Source: Phyllobacterium sophorae (GTDB lineage Bacteria; Pseudomonadota; Alphaproteobacteria; Rhizobiales; Rhizobiaceae). Taken from it: 64,000 nucleotides of DNA. The position numbers and the translations under genes were made by a program. The stretch covers positions 310,001 to 374,000 of the forward strand of contig NZ_PGGM01000002.1 in NCBI RefSeq assembly GCF_003010965.1, read 5' to 3'. The stretch's first letter is position 1. The number at the start of each line of letters is the position of its first letter. Shown here piece after piece: positions 13,060 through 59,161 of this stretch. A model generated the notes under the pieces. The model worked only from the letters and a program-made list of their open reading frames with translations. It was not told the origin of the DNA and did not search any database.

Positions 13060-13800
13060 CTAGCTCCTGGGCTCTATTTCGAATGGGGGCAGGCTCTGAA
13101 ATGCAAGTTTCAAGGCCTGCGACCAACCCTCCGAAATGATCTCGTAATAGGGATCGTGGCGTTCGATCCGCTTTTCGAATCCGAGCTTGAAGCTGTCGGA
13201 TTCATAGAATTGCAGGTCAAGCGGCAGCCCTACCGACAGGTTGGACTTCAATGTTGAATCGAATGATACCAGCAACAGCTTGGTCGCTTCTTCGAATGTC
13301 ATCGCCGGATCGTAGGACCGTACAATAATCGGCTTGCCGTATTTGTGCTCGCCGATCTGGAAAAAAGGCGTGTCGGGCGTGGACTCGATGAAATTGCCTT
13401 CCGGGTAGATCAGGAACAGACGGGGATCCCCGCCTTTGATCTGGCCCCCGAGGATAATCGACGCTCCGAACGAATCCGCGCGTTGCCCCCCGGAATCCAC
13501 CTCGTCGATGACATGTCTTATCGTATCGCCGACGAGCCGCGCGGTCTGGAACATCGATGGCATATCGTAGATCGATGGCGACCGTTCAGAGGGTGTCTTG
13601 GTACGCTCATTCAAAATACTGATGACGGCCTGCGTGGTTGCAAGGTTACCAGCGGATAGCAGCGTGATTACGCGATCGCCTGTTTTGGCCCAGGTGTACA
13701 TTTTCTTGAACGTCGAGATGTTGTCGACGCCAGCATTGGTCCTTGTGTCAGACATGAACACAAGACCACGGTCCAGTTTGAGGCCTACACAGTAGGTCAT
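13060..13800 (-). CDS. Anbu: proteasome-type protease (HslV/20S beta-like)
   Basis: 246-residue N-terminal-nucleophile hydrolase of the proteasome fold. It starts MTYCVGLKLDRGLVFMSDTRTNAG: Thr2 would become the catalytic N-terminal Thr after Met removal, and the Asp of SDTR sits at the conserved catalytic position. Anbu (ancestral beta subunit) is described in the literature as the third bacterial proteasome-like family, assembling into open helical or ring-like oligomers, with substrates unknown. Assignment is strengthened by its three classic partner genes directly upstream: transglutaminase, alpha-E, and circularly permuted ATP-grasp. It is the last gene of the cluster, 38 bp after the transglutaminase gene. 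The start at 13800 has a GGGA site. Confidence 0.92.
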   Translation of the reverse strand: MTYCVGLKLDRGLVFMSDTRTNAGVDNISTFKKMYTWAKTGDRVITLLSAGNLATTQAVISILNERTKTPSERSPSIYDMPSMFQTARLVGDTIRHVIDEVDSGGQRADSFGASIILGGQIKGGDPRLFLIYPEGNFIESTPDTPFFQIGEHKYGKPIIVRSYDPAMTFEEATKLLLVSFDSTLKSNLSVGLPLDLQFYESDSFKLGFEKRIERHDPYYEIISEGWSQALKLAFQSLPPFEIEPRS

Positions 13801-13838
13801 AGCGAATCCCGAATTCCGATTCCGAATGAATTTTGAGA

Positions 13839-14636
13839 TTACTGCTCCACATTGACCTCGACGGCAAGTGATTCGATGCCTGGTCCAAAGCGTATTCCGG
13901 AAATCGGGGCTGCTTCGCGGTAGTCGAGGCCGCATGCTACGCGGACATAGCCTTCATTCGGGCAAATATCGTTGGCTGCATCGAATCCGACCCAGCCGAG
14001 CCCCTCGATGTGGGCTTCGGCCCAGGCATGGCTTGCCGTCTGTTCGATCGTATTGTTGAGCATCAGATAGCCAGATACATACCGTGCCGGAATATTCAGG
14101 ACGCGTGCGACCGACAAAAAGATGTGTGTGTGGTCCTGACAGACGCCTTTACCATTCAAAAGCGCTTCCTCGGCCGTCGTGGCCACATTGGTCGATCCTG
14201 GTATATAGGCCACTCTCTGGTGCAATAGTCCCATCAATTCATGCATGATCGCAAGTTTGTCGGTCCTGATTTGAAGGCCGGCCGCCAATTCGCGAATCGC
14301 CTCTCCGGGCTTTGTCAGCTCGGTCTCCCGCTCATAGAGCCAGATCGGCATGAAGTTATAGACCTTGCCGAGAACGCCCGTGCGATCCTCGGTTTCAACT
14401 TGGCCTGAAGCGCGGATGACGAGCTCCTCGACGTTGCGTTCAAGGCTTATCAAGGTCGTGCGATTGCCATAACCGTCGCGATAGTTCGCCTCCTGCGTTG
14501 CCCCTTTCACCGTCACCGTCCAATCGATAACCTTTTGCCCTGGGCTGCTCTGTGGATGCAGGCGCAAACGCAGTACCGAATAATGCACCGGGGAGTCATA
14601 ACGATAGTTGGAATTGTGATGAATGTTCAAAAGCAT
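13839..14636 (-). CDS. Transglutaminase-like cysteine protease family protein of the Anbu cluster
   Basis: 265-residue protein with an N-terminal bacterial transglutaminase-like domain (about 1-80, NIHHNSNYRYDSPVHYSVLRLRLHP) and a core domain with the catalytic Cys in GVCQDHTHIFL (about residue 165), His in SHAWAEAHIEGLGWVGFD (about 207) and the following Asp. Such proteins usually act as peptidases or amidases on isopeptide bonds. ATG at 14636 is preferred; an in-frame TTG at 14645 would overlap the upstream stop. Predicted to work with the ATP-grasp, alpha-E and Anbu proteins in making and trimming a peptide tag (published prediction, not shown). Confidence 0.92.
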   Translation of the reverse strand: MLLNIHHNSNYRYDSPVHYSVLRLRLHPQSSPGQKVIDWTVTVKGATQEANYRDGYGNRTTLISLERNVEELVIRASGQVETEDRTGVLGKVYNFMPIWLYERETELTKPGEAIRELAAGLQIRTDKLAIMHELMGLLHQRVAYIPGSTNVATTAEEALLNGKGVCQDHTHIFLSVARVLNIPARYVSGYLMLNNTIEQTASHAWAEAHIEGLGWVGFDAANDICPNEGYVRVACGLDYREAAPISGIRFGPGIESLAVEVNVEQ

Positions 14637-14641
14637 GGGCT

Positions 14642-15583
14642 TCAATCGAAGTTGTAGGCCGCAGCAATTTTGCTGCTCAAGCTGTTCGTTTGATAGATGA
14701 GATCGCTCAGAAATTCATGAAGACCGTTGTCAAAGATGGTCCGGATATCATTGTTTTCCAGGCGGATCATTATACTTTCCGACATGTCATGGCATTCGTG
14801 CCGCTTGCCATAATCGCTGGCAAGGTATTTCAGATTATCCACGATGTTCGAATAACAGAAATTGAGCGATCGCGGCATTCTGGAGTTGAGGATCAGATAG
14901 TCTGCAATATTTACGGGATTGTATTCCACGTCATAGACCCAGCGATAGGAGCGGTGCGCTGAAACGGAGCGCAAGATTGACTCCCACTGAAAGTTGTCGA
15001 GTGTCGTGCCAACATACGAGATCGACGGCAGCAGGACGTAATATTTGACATCGAGAATGCGAGCGGTGTTGTCCGCCCGCTCGATAAACGTCCCGATGCG
15101 TGCAAAATTGAAAATCTCGTTGCGCAGCATCGTTCCGTGGAAAGCGCCGCGGATGATCGCGGTTTCACGCTTGATCTGGTCGAGCACACGCGGAAGATCG
15201 GTCTCGGGGACAGCCTGTGCCAGCGTGGATTTGAGGATCATCCACGTCTCGTTCACACTTTCCCAGGCCTCGCGCGTCAGTGCCGTGCGCACCATGCGCG
15301 CGTTTGAGCGAGCTGTCTCGACGCACGACATGACGCTCGACGGGTTTCCGGGATCGCGCAGCAGGAAATCAGACACCAGGCTGGCATTGTATTCGTTGTA
15401 CTTGTTGTCGTACCCGATTTTTACACCGGCGCTCATCAGAACCGAGGACCATTCTTCCGGTGCATCGGAAGTCTTCGTCAGAGCCATGCGCAAACCGGCA
15501 TCGATCAGGCGAGCCATATTCTCTGCCCGCTCAATATAGCGGAACATCCAGTAGAGACCATTTGCGGTTCGGCCAAGAAGCAT
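14642..15583 (-). CDS. Alpha-E domain-containing protein
   Basis: 313-residue all-helical protein of the alpha-E (formerly DUF403) family. It starts MLLGRTANGLYWMFRYIERAENMARLIDAGLR, the family hallmark, and a second related segment, GTFIERADNTARILDVKYY, recurs about 180 residues later. Alpha-E proteins occur almost only with circularly permuted ATP-grasp and transglutaminase genes. Function is not established. A GAGGGAT ribosome-binding site precedes the ATG, and the end lies 5 bp before the transglutaminase start. Confidence 0.93.
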   Translation of the reverse strand: MLLGRTANGLYWMFRYIERAENMARLIDAGLRMALTKTSDAPEEWSSVLMSAGVKIGYDNKYNEYNASLVSDFLLRDPGNPSSVMSCVETARSNARMVRTALTREAWESVNETWMILKSTLAQAVPETDLPRVLDQIKRETAIIRGAFHGTMLRNEIFNFARIGTFIERADNTARILDVKYYVLLPSISYVGTTLDNFQWESILRSVSAHRSYRWVYDVEYNPVNIADYLILNSRMPRSLNFCYSNIVDNLKYLASDYGKRHECHDMSESIMIRLENNDIRTIFDNGLHEFLSDLIYQTNSLSSKIAAAYNFD

Positions 15584-15649
15584 TTTTCGGTGTTATCCCT
15601 CTTTGTCTCTGGAACCGTCTTTGGCGGCCCTCATCCCCTCAGAACAAGT

Positions 15650-17062
15650 CTAATCGTCCAGCACCCACGTGTCCTTCGTGCCTCCGCCCTGACTGGAATT
15701 GACGACAAGCGAACCTTCTTTCAAGGCAACGCGTGTCAGCCCGCCAGGCGTGATGCGAATGCGATCGGAAACAAGAACAAAGGGCCGCAGGTCCACGTGC
15801 CGTGGCGCCAGGCCCTTTTCAGTCATGATCGGGGTCGTCGAAAGTGCCAGGGTCGGCTGGGCGATATAGTTCTTGGGGTTGGCCTTCAGCTTGAGTGCGA
15901 AAGCCTCGCACTCCTTCTTCGAAGCGGCAGGACCCACCAGCATGCCATAACCGCCTGAACCGTGGACTTCCTTGACGACGAGATCGGCGAGGTTTTCGAG
16001 CACGTATTTGAGTGTGTCCGGCTCGGAGCAGCGATGGGTTGGAACATTCTCCAAAATCGCCTTGCGGCCAGTATAGAACTCGACGATTTCGGGCATGTAG
16101 GAATAGAGCGCCTTGTCGTCGGCAATTCCCGTTCCAGGGGCGTTGGCGATTGTGATGTTGCCCGACCGGTAGACATCCATGATACCGGCGACGCCCAGTG
16201 CCGAGTCACGGCGGAAGGTGAGGGGATCGAGGAAAGAATCATCGACCCGGCGATAGAGAACGTCGATCGCGCGATTGCCCTCGGTGGTCCGCATGACCAC
16301 CTTGCCGTTTTCCACTTTCAGATCGCTGCCCTCGACGAGCTCGACACCCATCTGATCCGCGAGGAATGCATGCTCGAAATAGGCCGAGTTGTAGATGCCC
16401 GGCGTAAGAACAGCGATTGTCGGTGTCCCTTTGCATCCGGGCGGTGCAACTGCTGCAAGCGATTGGCGCAGCAGCTTCGGGTATGTTTCGACGGGGCGAA
16501 CCTTGATCTGCTGAAACAGTTCCGGAAACAACTGCATCATCGTTTCGCGGTTCTCCAGCATGTACGAAACACCGGACGGTGTGCGCGCATTGTCTTCAAG
16601 CACATAGAACTGGTTTTCTTCAGTTCTTACGATATCGACGCCGATAATATGCGTATAGACGTTGCCGGGCGGACGGAACCCGACCATTTCAGGTAGATAG
16701 GCATCGTTGTGGGTGAATAATTCTCGCGGAATGCGCCCCGCACGAATGATTTCCTGACGGTGGTAGATATCATCGAGAAACGCATTGAGGGCCATAACAC
16801 GCTGCTCAATGCCTTGCGACAGGCGGCGCCATTCATTGCCGGTGATAATACGGGGAATGATGTCGAATGGAATGAGCCGTTCGGCTGCTTCTTCGTCGCC
16901 ATAGACTGCGAAGGTAATCCCGGTCTTGCGAAATACATTTTCCGCATCCAGCGCCTTCTGCGCCAATCGCTCGGGGTTCTGGGTATCAAGCCAGCATTTC
17001 AGCTGTTCGTATGGCAGGCGCACATCACCGCCGGTTTTGATCATCTCATCAAATGGCTTCAC
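15650..17062 (-). CDS. Circularly permuted ATP-grasp protein of the Anbu cluster
   Basis: 470-residue circularly permuted type 2 ATP-grasp protein (former DUF404/DUF407). Seen: VYGDEEAAERLIPFDIIPRI, then NFYVLEDNARTPSGVSYMLENR-like sequence (here QFYVLEDNARTPSG, about residue 150), and VVKEVHGSGGYGMLVGP (about 360-380), which forms the nucleotide-binding loop. ATP-grasp enzymes ligate carboxylates to amines or thiols, so this is the likely peptide-ligase of the cluster. I place the start at GTG 17062 because AAAGGGGG lies 6-7 bases upstream; the frame opens ten codons earlier at a TTG (17092). Confidence 0.92.
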   Translation of the reverse strand: MKPFDEMIKTGGDVRLPYEQLKCWLDTQNPERLAQKALDAENVFRKTGITFAVYGDEEAAERLIPFDIIPRIITGNEWRRLSQGIEQRVMALNAFLDDIYHRQEIIRAGRIPRELFTHNDAYLPEMVGFRPPGNVYTHIIGVDIVRTEENQFYVLEDNARTPSGVSYMLENRETMMQLFPELFQQIKVRPVETYPKLLRQSLAAVAPPGCKGTPTIAVLTPGIYNSAYFEHAFLADQMGVELVEGSDLKVENGKVVMRTTEGNRAIDVLYRRVDDSFLDPLTFRRDSALGVAGIMDVYRSGNITIANAPGTGIADDKALYSYMPEIVEFYTGRKAILENVPTHRCSEPDTLKYVLENLADLVVKEVHGSGGYGMLVGPAASKKECEAFALKLKANPKNYIAQPTLALSTTPIMTEKGLAPRHVDLRPFVLVSDRIRITPGGLTRVALKEGSLVVNSSQGGGTKDTWVLDD

Positions 17063-17228
17063 TAATACCCCCTTTATATAAGTGTCATTCAAGCGGGTTC
17101 AGCAAAAAAAGCAAGCACATTCCATCGTTTAAGCGTGCACACTTTACTCCAGCACAAAAATTAGGCAGCCAAGACGGGATTGAGGCAAGCGCAATACGAT
17201 TCCGGTTATGGCGTAGGCGCTAAACAAT

Positions 17229-26449: not shown

Positions 26450-28123
26450 ATGAGCAAAAATCCCGACATTCTCCGTATCGCCATCGCCCAACTCAATCCG
26501 GTGCTGGGTGACATCAAGGGCAATCTGGCAAAAGCCCGCGAAGCACGAGCGGACGCCGCACGTCAGGGCGCCGATCTCGTCCTTTACACCGAGCTTTTCA
26601 TTTCGGGTTACCCACCGGAAGATCTGGTGCTCAAGCGCGCTTTCATCGAAGCCTGTGAAAAGGCGGTGCAGGATTTCGCCCTGGATACCGCCGATGGTGG
26701 TCCGGGGGTCATCATAGGAACGCCGCTGAAGCGTGAGACCGGCTTGCACAACTCGGTCATGGTGCTCGACGGCGGTAAAGTGATTGCCGAGCGTTTCAAG
26801 GTCGATCTGCCGAACTATGGCGAGTTCGATGAAAAGCGTGTCTTCCAGGCTGGCCCCATGCCCGGTCCCGTCAATTTCCGCGGGGTGCGCATTGGTATTC
26901 CAATTTGCGAGGATATCTGGGGCGATCATGACGTCTGCGAAACGCTGGCGGAGAGTGGCGCGGAAATTCTCTGCGTACCCAATGGCTCGCCCTATTATCG
27001 CGGCAAGGTCGATGTGCGCTATCAGGTGGCGCTGCGTCAGGTGATCGAGACGGGACTGCCACTGGTCTTTGCAAACCAGCTCGGCGGACAGGACGATCTG
27101 ATTTTCGACGGTGCCTCCTTTGCGTTCAATGCCGACAAGAACCTTGCGTTCCAGATGTCGCAGTTCGAGGAACAGCTGATCGTCACGACATGGCGGCGCG
27201 GAGCCAATGGCTGGGCATGCCATGAAGGGCCGATGTCGAGGATTCCGGAGGGCGAAGAGGCGAATTACCGTGCCTGCATGCTGGGCCTGCGCGATTACGT
27301 CAACAAGAATGGCTTCAAGGATGTCGTGCTCGGCCTTTCCGGTGGTATCGACTCCGCGATCTGCGCTGCGCTTGCGGTGGATGCATTGGGCGAAGAGCGC
27401 CTGCGCGCCGTCATGATGCCTTATACCTATACGTCGAAAGATTCGCTGAAGGACGCCGAGGATTGCGCCCGCATGCTTGGTTGCCGCTACGACATCGTGC
27501 CGATCTTCGAGCCGGTACAGGGCTTCCTCAAGGCGCTTGGCCCGACTTTCGAGGGCACCAAGGAAGGCATTACCGAAGAAAATCTGCAGAGCCGCGCGCG
27601 TGGCACCATCCTGATGGCGATTTCCAACAAGTTCGGCTCCATGGTGGTGACCACGGGCAACAAGTCCGAAATGTCGGTCGGCTATGCCACACTCTATGGC
27701 GACATGAATGGCGGATATAATCCGATCAAGGACCTTTACAAAATGCAGGTCTATGCCATGTCGGAATGGCGCAATAACAATGTCCCCGCCGGTGGTCTCG
27801 GCCCTTCGGGCGAGGTTATCCCGGTGAACATCATCAAGAAGGCGCCCTCGGCCGAGCTGCGTGAAAACCAGACCGACCAGGATTCGCTGCCGCCTTATCC
27901 GGTGCTCGACGATATTCTGGAATGCCTCGTCGAGCACGAGATGGGCGTCGATGAAATCGTCGGGCGCGGTCATGACCGCGCGACGGTCGAACGCATCGAG
28001 CACCTGCTCTACATTGCCGAATACAAGCGCCGCCAGTCTGCGCCGGGTGTAAAGGTGACAAAGAAGAATTTTGGCCGCGACCGGCGTTATCCGATCACCA
28101 ACCGGTTTCGGGATCGAAGCTAG
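26450..28123 (+). CDS. nadE: NAD+ synthase, glutamine-hydrolysing
   Basis: 557-residue two-domain enzyme forming NAD from nicotinate adenine dinucleotide with ammonia from glutamine. N-terminal nitrilase-type glutaminase (residues about 5-270): catalytic Glu in LYTELFISGYPPEDL, Lys in KVDLPNYGEFDE, Cys in IPICEDIWG. C-terminal synthetase (about 285-557): PP-loop LGLSGGIDSAICAALAVDALG near residue 300 and TTGNKSEMSVGYATLYGDMNG-type ATP/NaAD-binding segment near 405. All catalytic residues present. A hairpin follows 40 bases after the stop. Confidence 0.95.
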   Translation: MSKNPDILRIAIAQLNPVLGDIKGNLAKAREARADAARQGADLVLYTELFISGYPPEDLVLKRAFIEACEKAVQDFALDTADGGPGVIIGTPLKRETGLHNSVMVLDGGKVIAERFKVDLPNYGEFDEKRVFQAGPMPGPVNFRGVRIGIPICEDIWGDHDVCETLAESGAEILCVPNGSPYYRGKVDVRYQVALRQVIETGLPLVFANQLGGQDDLIFDGASFAFNADKNLAFQMSQFEEQLIVTTWRRGANGWACHEGPMSRIPEGEEANYRACMLGLRDYVNKNGFKDVVLGLSGGIDSAICAALAVDALGEERLRAVMMPYTYTSKDSLKDAEDCARMLGCRYDIVPIFEPVQGFLKALGPTFEGTKEGITEENLQSRARGTILMAISNKFGSMVVTTGNKSEMSVGYATLYGDMNGGYNPIKDLYKMQVYAMSEWRNNNVPAGGLGPSGEVIPVNIIKKAPSAELRENQTDQDSLPPYPVLDDILECLVEHEMGVDEIVGRGHDRATVERIEHLLYIAEYKRRQSAPGVKVTKKNFGRDRRYPITNRFRDRS

Positions 28124-28163: not shown

Positions 28164-28190
28164 AAGCGCCTGCCTAAAAAACAGGCGCTT
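28164..28190 (+). terminator. Hairpin downstream of nadE
   Basis: 9-bp perfect stem (28164-28172 with 28182-28190) with a 9-base A-rich loop. It is not followed by a clear T run, so termination efficiency is doubtful. Confidence 0.5.
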
Positions 28191-58346: not shown

Positions 58347-58744
58347 CCGTTATCTCCAGTGCATTCCGTTCTAGACAAAGCTTGCTCTAGATAAGGTGTC
58401 ATGCTTCATGAAAAGACACAAATAGTCGATAAATGTCTGCGGAAAATGTGACAGTTATCAAATAATTGTGCAAAACCGGTTTGCGACAATTCTGTGCGGG
58501 ATGCGTTTTTGCAAGGCAGCGCGCAACGGGTCTTAGTGCGTTGGAGCTATGAAACGGCGGAAATTGGGCCAGTTTCCTCATCTTTCGGATCAGAAAATCG
58601 CGAAACTTCGCGGATTTTGCCAATAATTTGAGCAAATTCGTGGCATTTCTTTCTTTGATTTACATGTCTTTTTGTAGTTGTGCGCCCCTTTGACACGACC
58701 TATATAGGCCTCCTCGCGTCTCATAGGTGCAGGGTGATTCAAAG
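58347..58744. other. Upstream region of dksA with a strong inverted repeat
   Basis: 398 bp, AT-rich, no supported gene. A hairpin, 58594-58604 paired with 58607-58618 (one bulge), would be stable enough to terminate or to serve as an operator. A TTGTGC-N17-TATATA pair (58678-58683, 58701-58706) is a weak promoter candidate for dksA. A TTGACA lies at 58690-58695 but has no partner at the right distance. Confidence 0.45.
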
Positions 58745-59161
58745 ATGAATAAACTTATCGATCTTGACTATAAGCCCACGGATGACGAGCCCTTCATGAG
58801 TGATCGGCAGAAATCCTATTTTCGTGAAAAGCTCATCAACTGGAAAAACGACATTCTGCGGGAAGCGCGCGAAACGCTTGAAATCCTGCAGCAGGAAAAC
58901 GCGAACCTGCCGGATATTGCAGATCGTGCATCCTCCGAAACCGACCGGGCCATTGAACTGCGCGCGCGTGACCGCCAGCGCAAGCTGATCTCCAAGATCG
59001 ATGCCGCATTGCAGCGTATCGACGATGGAACCTACGGATTCTGCGAAGAGACAGGGGATCCGATCAGCCTGAAGCGTCTGGATGCGCGTCCAATCGCAAC
59101 TCTATCCATCGAAGCTCAGGAACGTCACGAAAGGCGCGAGAAAGTCTACCGCGACGACTGA
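58745..59161 (+). CDS. dksA: RNA polymerase-binding transcription factor DksA
   Basis: 138-residue coiled-coil regulator that enters the RNA polymerase secondary channel and, with ppGpp, adjusts rRNA and amino-acid promoters. The coiled coil spans about residues 25-90 with the tip Asp/Ala region ASSETDRA. The zinc-finger region reads YGFCEETGDPISLKRLDARPIATL: only one Cys (about residue 100) of the canonical four remains, as reported for some alphaproteobacterial DksA proteins. Start at 58745 by the conserved LDYKPTDDEPFMS. A terminator follows. Confidence 0.93.
   Translation: MNKLIDLDYKPTDDEPFMSDRQKSYFREKLINWKNDILREARETLEILQQENANLPDIADRASSETDRAIELRARDRQRKLISKIDAALQRIDDGTYGFCEETGDPISLKRLDARPIATLSIEAQERHERREKVYRDD

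Follow-up and report, generated by a model that had tools for sequence, protein, structure and literature searches.

What does Anbu, a relative of the proteasome, do for a bacterium, and under which condition is it needed? The question is raised by the 64,000-nt stretch of Phyllobacterium sophorae contig NZ_PGGM01000002.1 analyzed here (the window; contig positions 310,001 to 374,000). Four adjacent open reading frames (ORFs) on its minus strand, at 13060–17062, encode in order a circularly permuted ATP-grasp ligase, an alpha-E protein, a transglutaminase-like cysteine enzyme and Anbu, which has been described as a proteasome relative without known function (PMC8665760). The locus is an ordinary Anbu-1 operon, and its four-gene set and gene order were already published. 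We propose that it specifies a nitrogen-controlled system of amide ligation and hydrolysis that has the ATP-grasp/alpha-E pair as its core, a reading to which we give a probability of about one half.

The evidence for nitrogen control lies upstream of the operon. An NtrC-type dyad, TGCCTAATTTTTGTGCT (17151–17167, unstranded), occupies the interval 89–105 nt before the start codon. It is one mismatch away from TGC-N11-GCA, the NtrC motif footprinted in Sinorhizobium meliloti (PMC10746234). Before Anbu operons and PII genes, dyads are enriched at exactly this spacing. There are 67 TGC-N11-GCA sites in 92 operon upstream regions, compared with 6–13 at other gaps, and 28 sites in 27 PII-family upstream regions, where 6.5 are expected. 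After thinning to sequences <60% alike, the counts are 47 sites in 74 operon upstreams (vs. 3–13) and 18 sites in 19 PII upstreams (vs. 3–8). The longer form TGCC-N9-GGCA is found in 24 of 91 operon upstreams (0–2 at other gaps; mean 0.7 and maximum 3 in 50 shuffles) and in 25 of 1960 control windows. Dyad placement is also conserved: the best-scoring dyad precedes the start by 104–107 nt in each of the 12 Phyllobacterium-type upstreams, which represent 11 distinct genomes because L036 and L066 are identical. All 12 Mesorhizobium upstreams carry an exact TGC-N11-GCA, and several of them have a second dyad copy near 157 nt. A position weight matrix built from 13 chosen nitrogen-gene sites ranks the window dyad first among 63,984 window positions, and a matrix built from PII sites only puts 36 of 91 operon upstreams above the 99th percentile of control windows. 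In the 6.35-Mb genome, the strict form, TGCCYNWWWWWNRGGCA, matches once, upstream of glnK-amtB. Its nine matches in eight genomes include this genome's own glnK, two Anbu operons (L200 and L204), urtA (L198) and a xanthine-dehydrogenase-like operon (L201). Together, these patterns suggest that the window dyad is a candidate NtrC site; we do not class the operon as a proven member of the NtrC regulon.

Other sequences of this kind occur in the window. A high-scoring NtrC-type dyad, TGCCAATAATTTGAGCA (58618–58634), stands before an ORF (58727–59161) that presumably encodes a DksA family protein, and a dyad-like match at 28171–28187 is part of a hairpin just 3′ of an ORF (26450–28123) that by eye resembles an NAD synthetase. 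At one of the loci compared, an EnvZ-like sensor kinase ORF (L204:174–1493) lies immediately upstream of the Anbu operon.

The preliminary description of this locus missed the nitrogen link, which is published for Pseudomonas and for a related Burkholderia cluster; in alphaproteobacteria, a putative link is supported by the DNA motifs. The names DUF404/407 and DUF403, used for the Burkholderia cluster, we take to mean ATP-grasp and alpha-E. In Burkholderia cenocepacia, the cluster of DUF404/407, DUF403 and a transglutaminase is NtrC- and sigma54-dependent, in an account that does not name Anbu (PMC5491218). In Pseudomonas putida, PP_2685 (proteasome beta-like) and PP_2688 (ATP-grasp) are up 2^4.4 and 2^4.0, respectively, on nitrate vs. 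ammonium (PMC8050072), PP2685–2687 are up 7- to 11-fold under nitrogen limitation (PMC3325844), and the PP_2685–2688 operon is listed under NtrB/NtrC (PMC7801951). A table in the last of these sources gives 1.12, 4.81 and 1.45 for PP_2685 (Anbu) and at least 11-fold for its three partners. The Pseudomonas and Yersinia bercovieri operon (Valas and Bourne 2008; Iyer 2009; as cited in PMC5666114 and PMC6376114) is like that of the window in having the four families in the same order, with Thr1/Asp17/Lys32 in Anbu; for P. putida, a nitrogen-limitation response is reported. The host is different, however, and the window promoter has the dyad and a sigma70-like block instead of a recognizable sigma54 element.

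Is Anbu the center of this system? The preliminary description had presented the four genes as one complete system and had proposed their co-occurrence as a check. We searched the same 190 alphaproteobacterial genomes for all four families. Anbu is present in 54 of them, and these genomes nearly always carry every partner: the permuted ATP-grasp in 54 of 54 (Fisher p = 9e-33), alpha-E in 53, the transglutaminase N-domain in 53, and all four families in 52. The 20 listed genomes without an Anbu match are mostly small, and in 17 further genomes the three partners occur with Anbu missing. Linkage is another matter. With fused alpha-E frames left out of the count, 34 of 58 Anbu genes are ≤3 kb from an unfused alpha-E and 24 are not; therefore, linkage alone does not account for the joint retention. 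Some of the 24 lie at contig ends (e.g., in G185) or behind inserted genes (G222). In seven of the 34 linked cases, the distance from alpha-E to Anbu is 37–335 bp, too short for a transglutaminase. Eleven genomes have only a distant Anbu (29–34% identity) that is unlinked to alpha-E; all 11 keep the three partners, and the four of these distant Anbu proteins that were translated have Anbu-2-like pocket residues. Four genomes (G120, G166, G198 and G205) carry two Anbu genes each, the second being unlinked to an unfused alpha-E, and the second copies of G198 and G205 differ from the window Anbu at some S1-pocket residues.

The same picture comes from named relatives, for which the best 80 of 584 confirmed stretches, nearly all from alphaproteobacteria, were kept. 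The exact order ATP-grasp, alpha-E, transglutaminase, Anbu is found in 70 of these 80 loci. Three of the ten deviant loci are cut by contig ends (L070, L113 and L129). Three Aureimonas loci (L098, L118 and L123) have ATP-grasp, alpha-E and Anbu without the transglutaminase, and their genomes hold other transglutaminases of the same family elsewhere (2, 3 and 2 matches, respectively). The remainder are L107 (Anbu alone), L114 (ATP-grasp match split in two), L127 (an additional transglutaminase-like match) and L120 (rearranged). At L047:5903–14258 and L048:3551–9910, additional genes separate the transglutaminase from Anbu, with the four operon genes still on one strand. In the class survey and at the Aureimonas loci, Anbu or the transglutaminase may be absent or lie elsewhere; an inseparable four-gene system is therefore not supported. 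Because either one can be missing or unlinked while the ATP-grasp/alpha-E pair stays, this pair looks like the core, with Anbu and the transglutaminase downstream and partly replaceable.

A second cluster in the same genome, on contig C4 (L046:2471–9240), bears on this pairing. A 1113-aa ORF with a transglutaminase N-domain precedes an 825-aa open frame that holds both the ATP-grasp domain and alpha-E, and a 295-aa transglutaminase ORF follows it. No Anbu match was found in this cluster, whose proteins are about 24–31% identical to those of the window. It resembles the window operon in its ATP-grasp, alpha-E and transglutaminase families and in having an upstream dyad at a similar distance; it differs in lacking Anbu, in the fusion of ATP-grasp with alpha-E, and in its additional large transglutaminase. 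The natural fusion supports the pairing of the two families. Its dyad is an exact TGC-N11-GCA, the best in 16 kb, 86–102 nt before the first gene. When ten further loci were scanned (this second cluster, Anbu-less operons and unlinked genes), the best dyad immediately preceded the first gene at L046 and L059 only. At L059, an operon without Anbu in G081, the best dyad of 15 kb (L059:5377–5393) lies slightly more than 100 nt before the ATP-grasp start.

What chemistry could such a pair carry out? The ATP-grasp ligase (15650–17062, minus strand; 470 aa, GTG start) covers the full profiles of PF14403 (CP_ATPgrasp_2; 550 bits) and PF04174 (491 bits) and matches the solved structure 3n6x (E = 9.9e-195). 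Judged by sequence conservation, it is the most constrained part of the operon within the alphaproteobacterial set compared: 221 of its 470 positions are ≥98.5% identical (75 sequences), vs. 61 of 246 in Anbu (79 sequences), 51 of 313 in alpha-E (78 sequences) and 44 of 265 in the transglutaminase (75 sequences). The ATP-grasp protein of the Yersinia operon is reported to release phosphate from ATP (PMC6376114). The alpha-E protein (14642–15583, minus strand; 313 aa; PF04168, 312 bits) is an internal duplication. Its residues 16–116 align to 166–273 with a score of 90 (300 shuffles: mean 28, standard deviation 4.5, maximum 50), hhalign of the two halves gives a probability of 97 (E = 4.8e-11), and an ER motif occurs once in each repeat (E18-R19; E168-R169), without variation among 58 sequences. 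Its AlphaFold2 model is all-helical, with a predicted local distance difference test (pLDDT) score of 89.8; the best hit of a PDB sequence search (E = 0.12) is not convincing, and further comparisons recognized no solved relative. The transglutaminase-like enzyme (13839–14636, minus strand; 265 aa, ATG start; Bact_transglu_N, PF08379, 80 bits; Transglut_core, PF01841, 74 bits) has a predicted Cys-His-Asp triad (C166, H203 and D219, invariant in 52 sequences) within a modeled transglutaminase fold (pLDDT 95.6). The best fold match, 3isr (E = 5.6e-23, template modeling score 0.80), was also found by a PDB sequence search. All four Pfam assignments in the operon exceed the Pfam cut-offs.

Anbu itself (13060–13800, minus strand; 246 aa, ATG start, beginning MTYCVGL) aligns over almost its whole length with five Anbu sequences of solved structure (5loy, 5nyj, 5nyf, 5nyw and 5lox; E = 4e-89 to 4e-64); the sole other match in that PDB search is a proteasome beta subunit (E = 9e-4). 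Residues T2, D18, K33 and G51, or T1, D17, K32 and G50 in mature numbering, are invariant in 9 Anbu proteins and ≥98.5% identical in 79. As the preliminary description had it, Thr2 is at the active-site position: in the alignments it falls on the N-terminal Thr of the solved Anbu proteins (residue 1 in 5loy and residue 2 in 5nyj), and, with the Met-Thr start present, it is the predicted N-terminal nucleophile once Met is removed. The S1 pocket, in mature numbering, reads T20 F30 S48 L52 T55. In Pseudomonas aeruginosa, the Anbu-1 pocket is T20 F30 T48 L52 S55 and that of Anbu-2 is basic (PMC5666114), and by this alignment the window pocket is of the Anbu-1 type, with two conservative differences. 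The active-site residues of both Anbu and the transglutaminase are intact, as had been claimed, yet the further statement that the system looks active must be toned down in view of the published Anbu assays considered below.

In the system we propose, NtrC would bind the dyad about 90–105 nt before the ATP-grasp gene, and transcription of the four genes would change when nitrogen is short. The permuted ATP-grasp would activate a carboxylate with ATP and join it to an amine, with alpha-E as its partner. The transglutaminase-like enzyme, through its Cys-His-Asp residues, may cleave or transfer the amide, and the open ring of Anbu may hydrolyze the product or released peptides. Overall, the system would turn over or salvage a peptide or amide that contains nitrogen when this element is limiting. 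We also entertain, as a doubtful extension, that alphaproteobacteria have a single nitrogen-recycling pathway under NtrC control, with the Anbu operon as one arm and the paralogous cluster without Anbu as the other. In this pathway, alpha-E would set the specificity of ATP-grasp and the amide would be opened by Anbu or by a large transglutaminase.

Several observations weigh against this proposal. First, the window dyad has a mismatch and is missed by the strict pattern, and the PII-only matrix ranks it third, with two other window sites higher. An exact TGC-N11-GCA is present in 1 of 12 Phyllobacterium-type upstreams, 13 of 27 from Rhodobacterales, 1 of 3 from Aureimonas and 0 of 2 from Brucella/Ochrobactrum. 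Four of the nine strict matches (L196, L197, L202 and L203) are not tied to nitrogen genes, the reversed strict pattern has three matches in the eight genomes, and in eight of the ten further loci the best dyad is not just before the first gene. Second, no sigma54 −24/−12 element stands out before the operon: the best window score is 7 of 11, not above control. Third, in two columns of the PMC7801951 table, the P. putida Anbu gene rises only 1.12-fold and 1.45-fold. Fourth, peptidase activity was absent in the reported assays of YbAnbu, HyAnbu and PaAnbu, and the proteins of the Yersinia operon formed no specific complex in the reported experiments (PMC6376114). Fifth, the co-occurrence in the 190 genomes is uncorrected for genome size and phylogeny. 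Finally, an ATP-spending ligase is odd for salvage.

The chemistry could instead be that of small molecules. Glutathionylspermidine synthetase and the gamma-glutamyl-amine ligases join glutamate or a peptide to an amine. By analogy, the ATP-grasp protein would couple an amine to glutamate or to a short peptide, with the transglutaminase-like enzyme and Anbu as amidases and the nitrogen being stored or used. The only solved ATP-grasp relative found, 3n6x, is titled a putative glutathionylspermidine synthase, although this name is an annotation only. The extreme conservation of the ATP-grasp protein would be expected for a fixed small substrate, and the occurrence of the dyad before PII genes, as well as before urtA in other genomes, also fits the idea. 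However, the neighborhood showed no conspicuously conserved gene for a transporter, an oxidase or amine degradation, and a small amidase would not need anything as elaborate as a dodecameric Anbu ring. We consider this alternative less likely than our proposal.

A more familiar comparison is the Pup-proteasome of actinobacteria, which comprises a glutamine-synthetase-like ligase, a tag gene and an unfoldase and is linked to nitrogen starvation. On this model, proteins would receive a peptide or amino-acid tag from ATP-grasp/alpha-E and lose it through the transglutaminase-like enzyme, and those still tagged would be degraded by Anbu. An amide ligase does adjoin a proteasome-fold protease here, and control by nitrogen limitation would suit amino-acid recycling, as in the mycobacterial Pup system. 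Unlike the Pup-proteasome, the window operon shows no glutamine-synthetase-like ligase, tag gene or unfoldase. A fifth conserved gene, which the preliminary description had suggested seeking, was not found within about 10 kb, neither as an unfoldase nor as a tag candidate. Anbu shares with HslV and the 20S proteasome beta subunit the N-terminal nucleophile fold and the Thr1-Asp17-Lys32/33 catalytic set. Unlike theirs, its ring is split and open, and it has no AAA+ partner that is known (PMC5666114); the window Anbu scores just 37.7 bits against the Pfam Proteasome profile (PF00227). In P. aeruginosa Anbu, epoxomicin and MG132 are bound by Thr1, and the authors, who take this inhibitor-binding N-terminal Thr and the proteasome-type fold as backing degradation, rate degradation likelier than peptide synthesis (PMC5666114). 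The preliminary description was in line with the literature in identifying the set as a predicted system of peptide ligation and processing, and its leaning toward peptide synthesis is a published idea, but one that these authors do not favor. Because 17 of the 190 genomes have the partners without Anbu, the product need not feed Anbu, and the absence of peptidase activity in published assays also counts against protein degradation. We rate the tagging of proteins as unlikely.

The question of how the operon would be transcribed leads to the last alternative. A conserved promoter-like block, GGAATGTGCTTGCT...CTTGAATGA (17085–17123, minus strand), contains what we read as a candidate −35 (CTTGCT) and −10 (TTGAAT). 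It is kept in 11 aligned Phyllobacterium-type upstreams, and its CTTG(C/A)TTT-like part recurs in many of the other Rhizobiales upstreams inspected. The sigma54 consensus is not enriched in operon upstreams. The NtrC of this genome carries GAFTGA, and its glnK has a −24/−12 element, TGGCACGGAACTTGA. A sigma54 promoter is usual, not universal, for NtrC activation. Caulobacter NtrC is without GAFTGA, and the authors of that work believe that it acts at sigma70 promoters (PMC10274813). The NtrC of S. meliloti is able to exert repression from a dyad of this type independently of sigma54 (PMC10746234); therefore, either direction of regulation is possible for the window operon. That the operon is instead essentially constitutive in Phyllobacterium, with the dyad binding another Fis-type regulator or being a relic, would suit the degenerate window copy, the ordinary-looking promoter block without a sigma54 element and a description of Anbu expression as constitutive and moderate (PMC5666114), but it is improbable given the equal placement of the best-scoring dyad across the Phyllobacterium-type upstreams, the exact dyads of Mesorhizobium and the same motif before this genome's glnK.

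The layout of the locus is consistent with the four genes forming one unit. ORFs and Pfam profiles bear out the four families, in this order and on one strand, as first described. From ATP-grasp to Anbu, the genes are 66, 5 and 38 bp apart; the first gap had been given as 67, one too many, and the other two were right. No terminator-like site was found by the scan of the minus strand between the four genes; the sole minus-strand site (17258–17229) lies upstream of all four genes, and a single promoter-like site on this strand falls within Anbu. The counts of both kinds of site are no greater than shuffled expectation and carry little weight. The gap sizes and the lack of an internal terminator-like site are only consistent with a putative single operon transcript. 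A purine-rich candidate ribosome-binding site (17068–17075, minus strand) lies 5′ of the GTG start of the ATP-grasp gene; its AAGGGG is kept in the Phyllobacterium-type alignment, as is the GTG in all 11 aligned upstreams. Among the matches listed, the window Anbu is closest (91%) to those of two Phyllobacterium records, and the genes flanking the operon are kept in both records, as they are in all nine loci retrieved from the same genus, which marks the host as Phyllobacterium-like.

What we add to the known system, namely the alphaproteobacterial dyads, co-retention without linkage and the alpha-E duplication, is useful, and none of it is decisive. The partners of Anbu are widespread, and the co-retention pattern makes ATP-grasp and alpha-E the starting point, rather than the protease. 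A candidate regulatory site that the operon has in common with glnK and PII genes points to the condition for study, and the long-standing question of Anbu function thereby becomes directly testable. If the two-arm extension is true, a proteasome-fold protease would serve a starvation metabolite, not general protein quality control.

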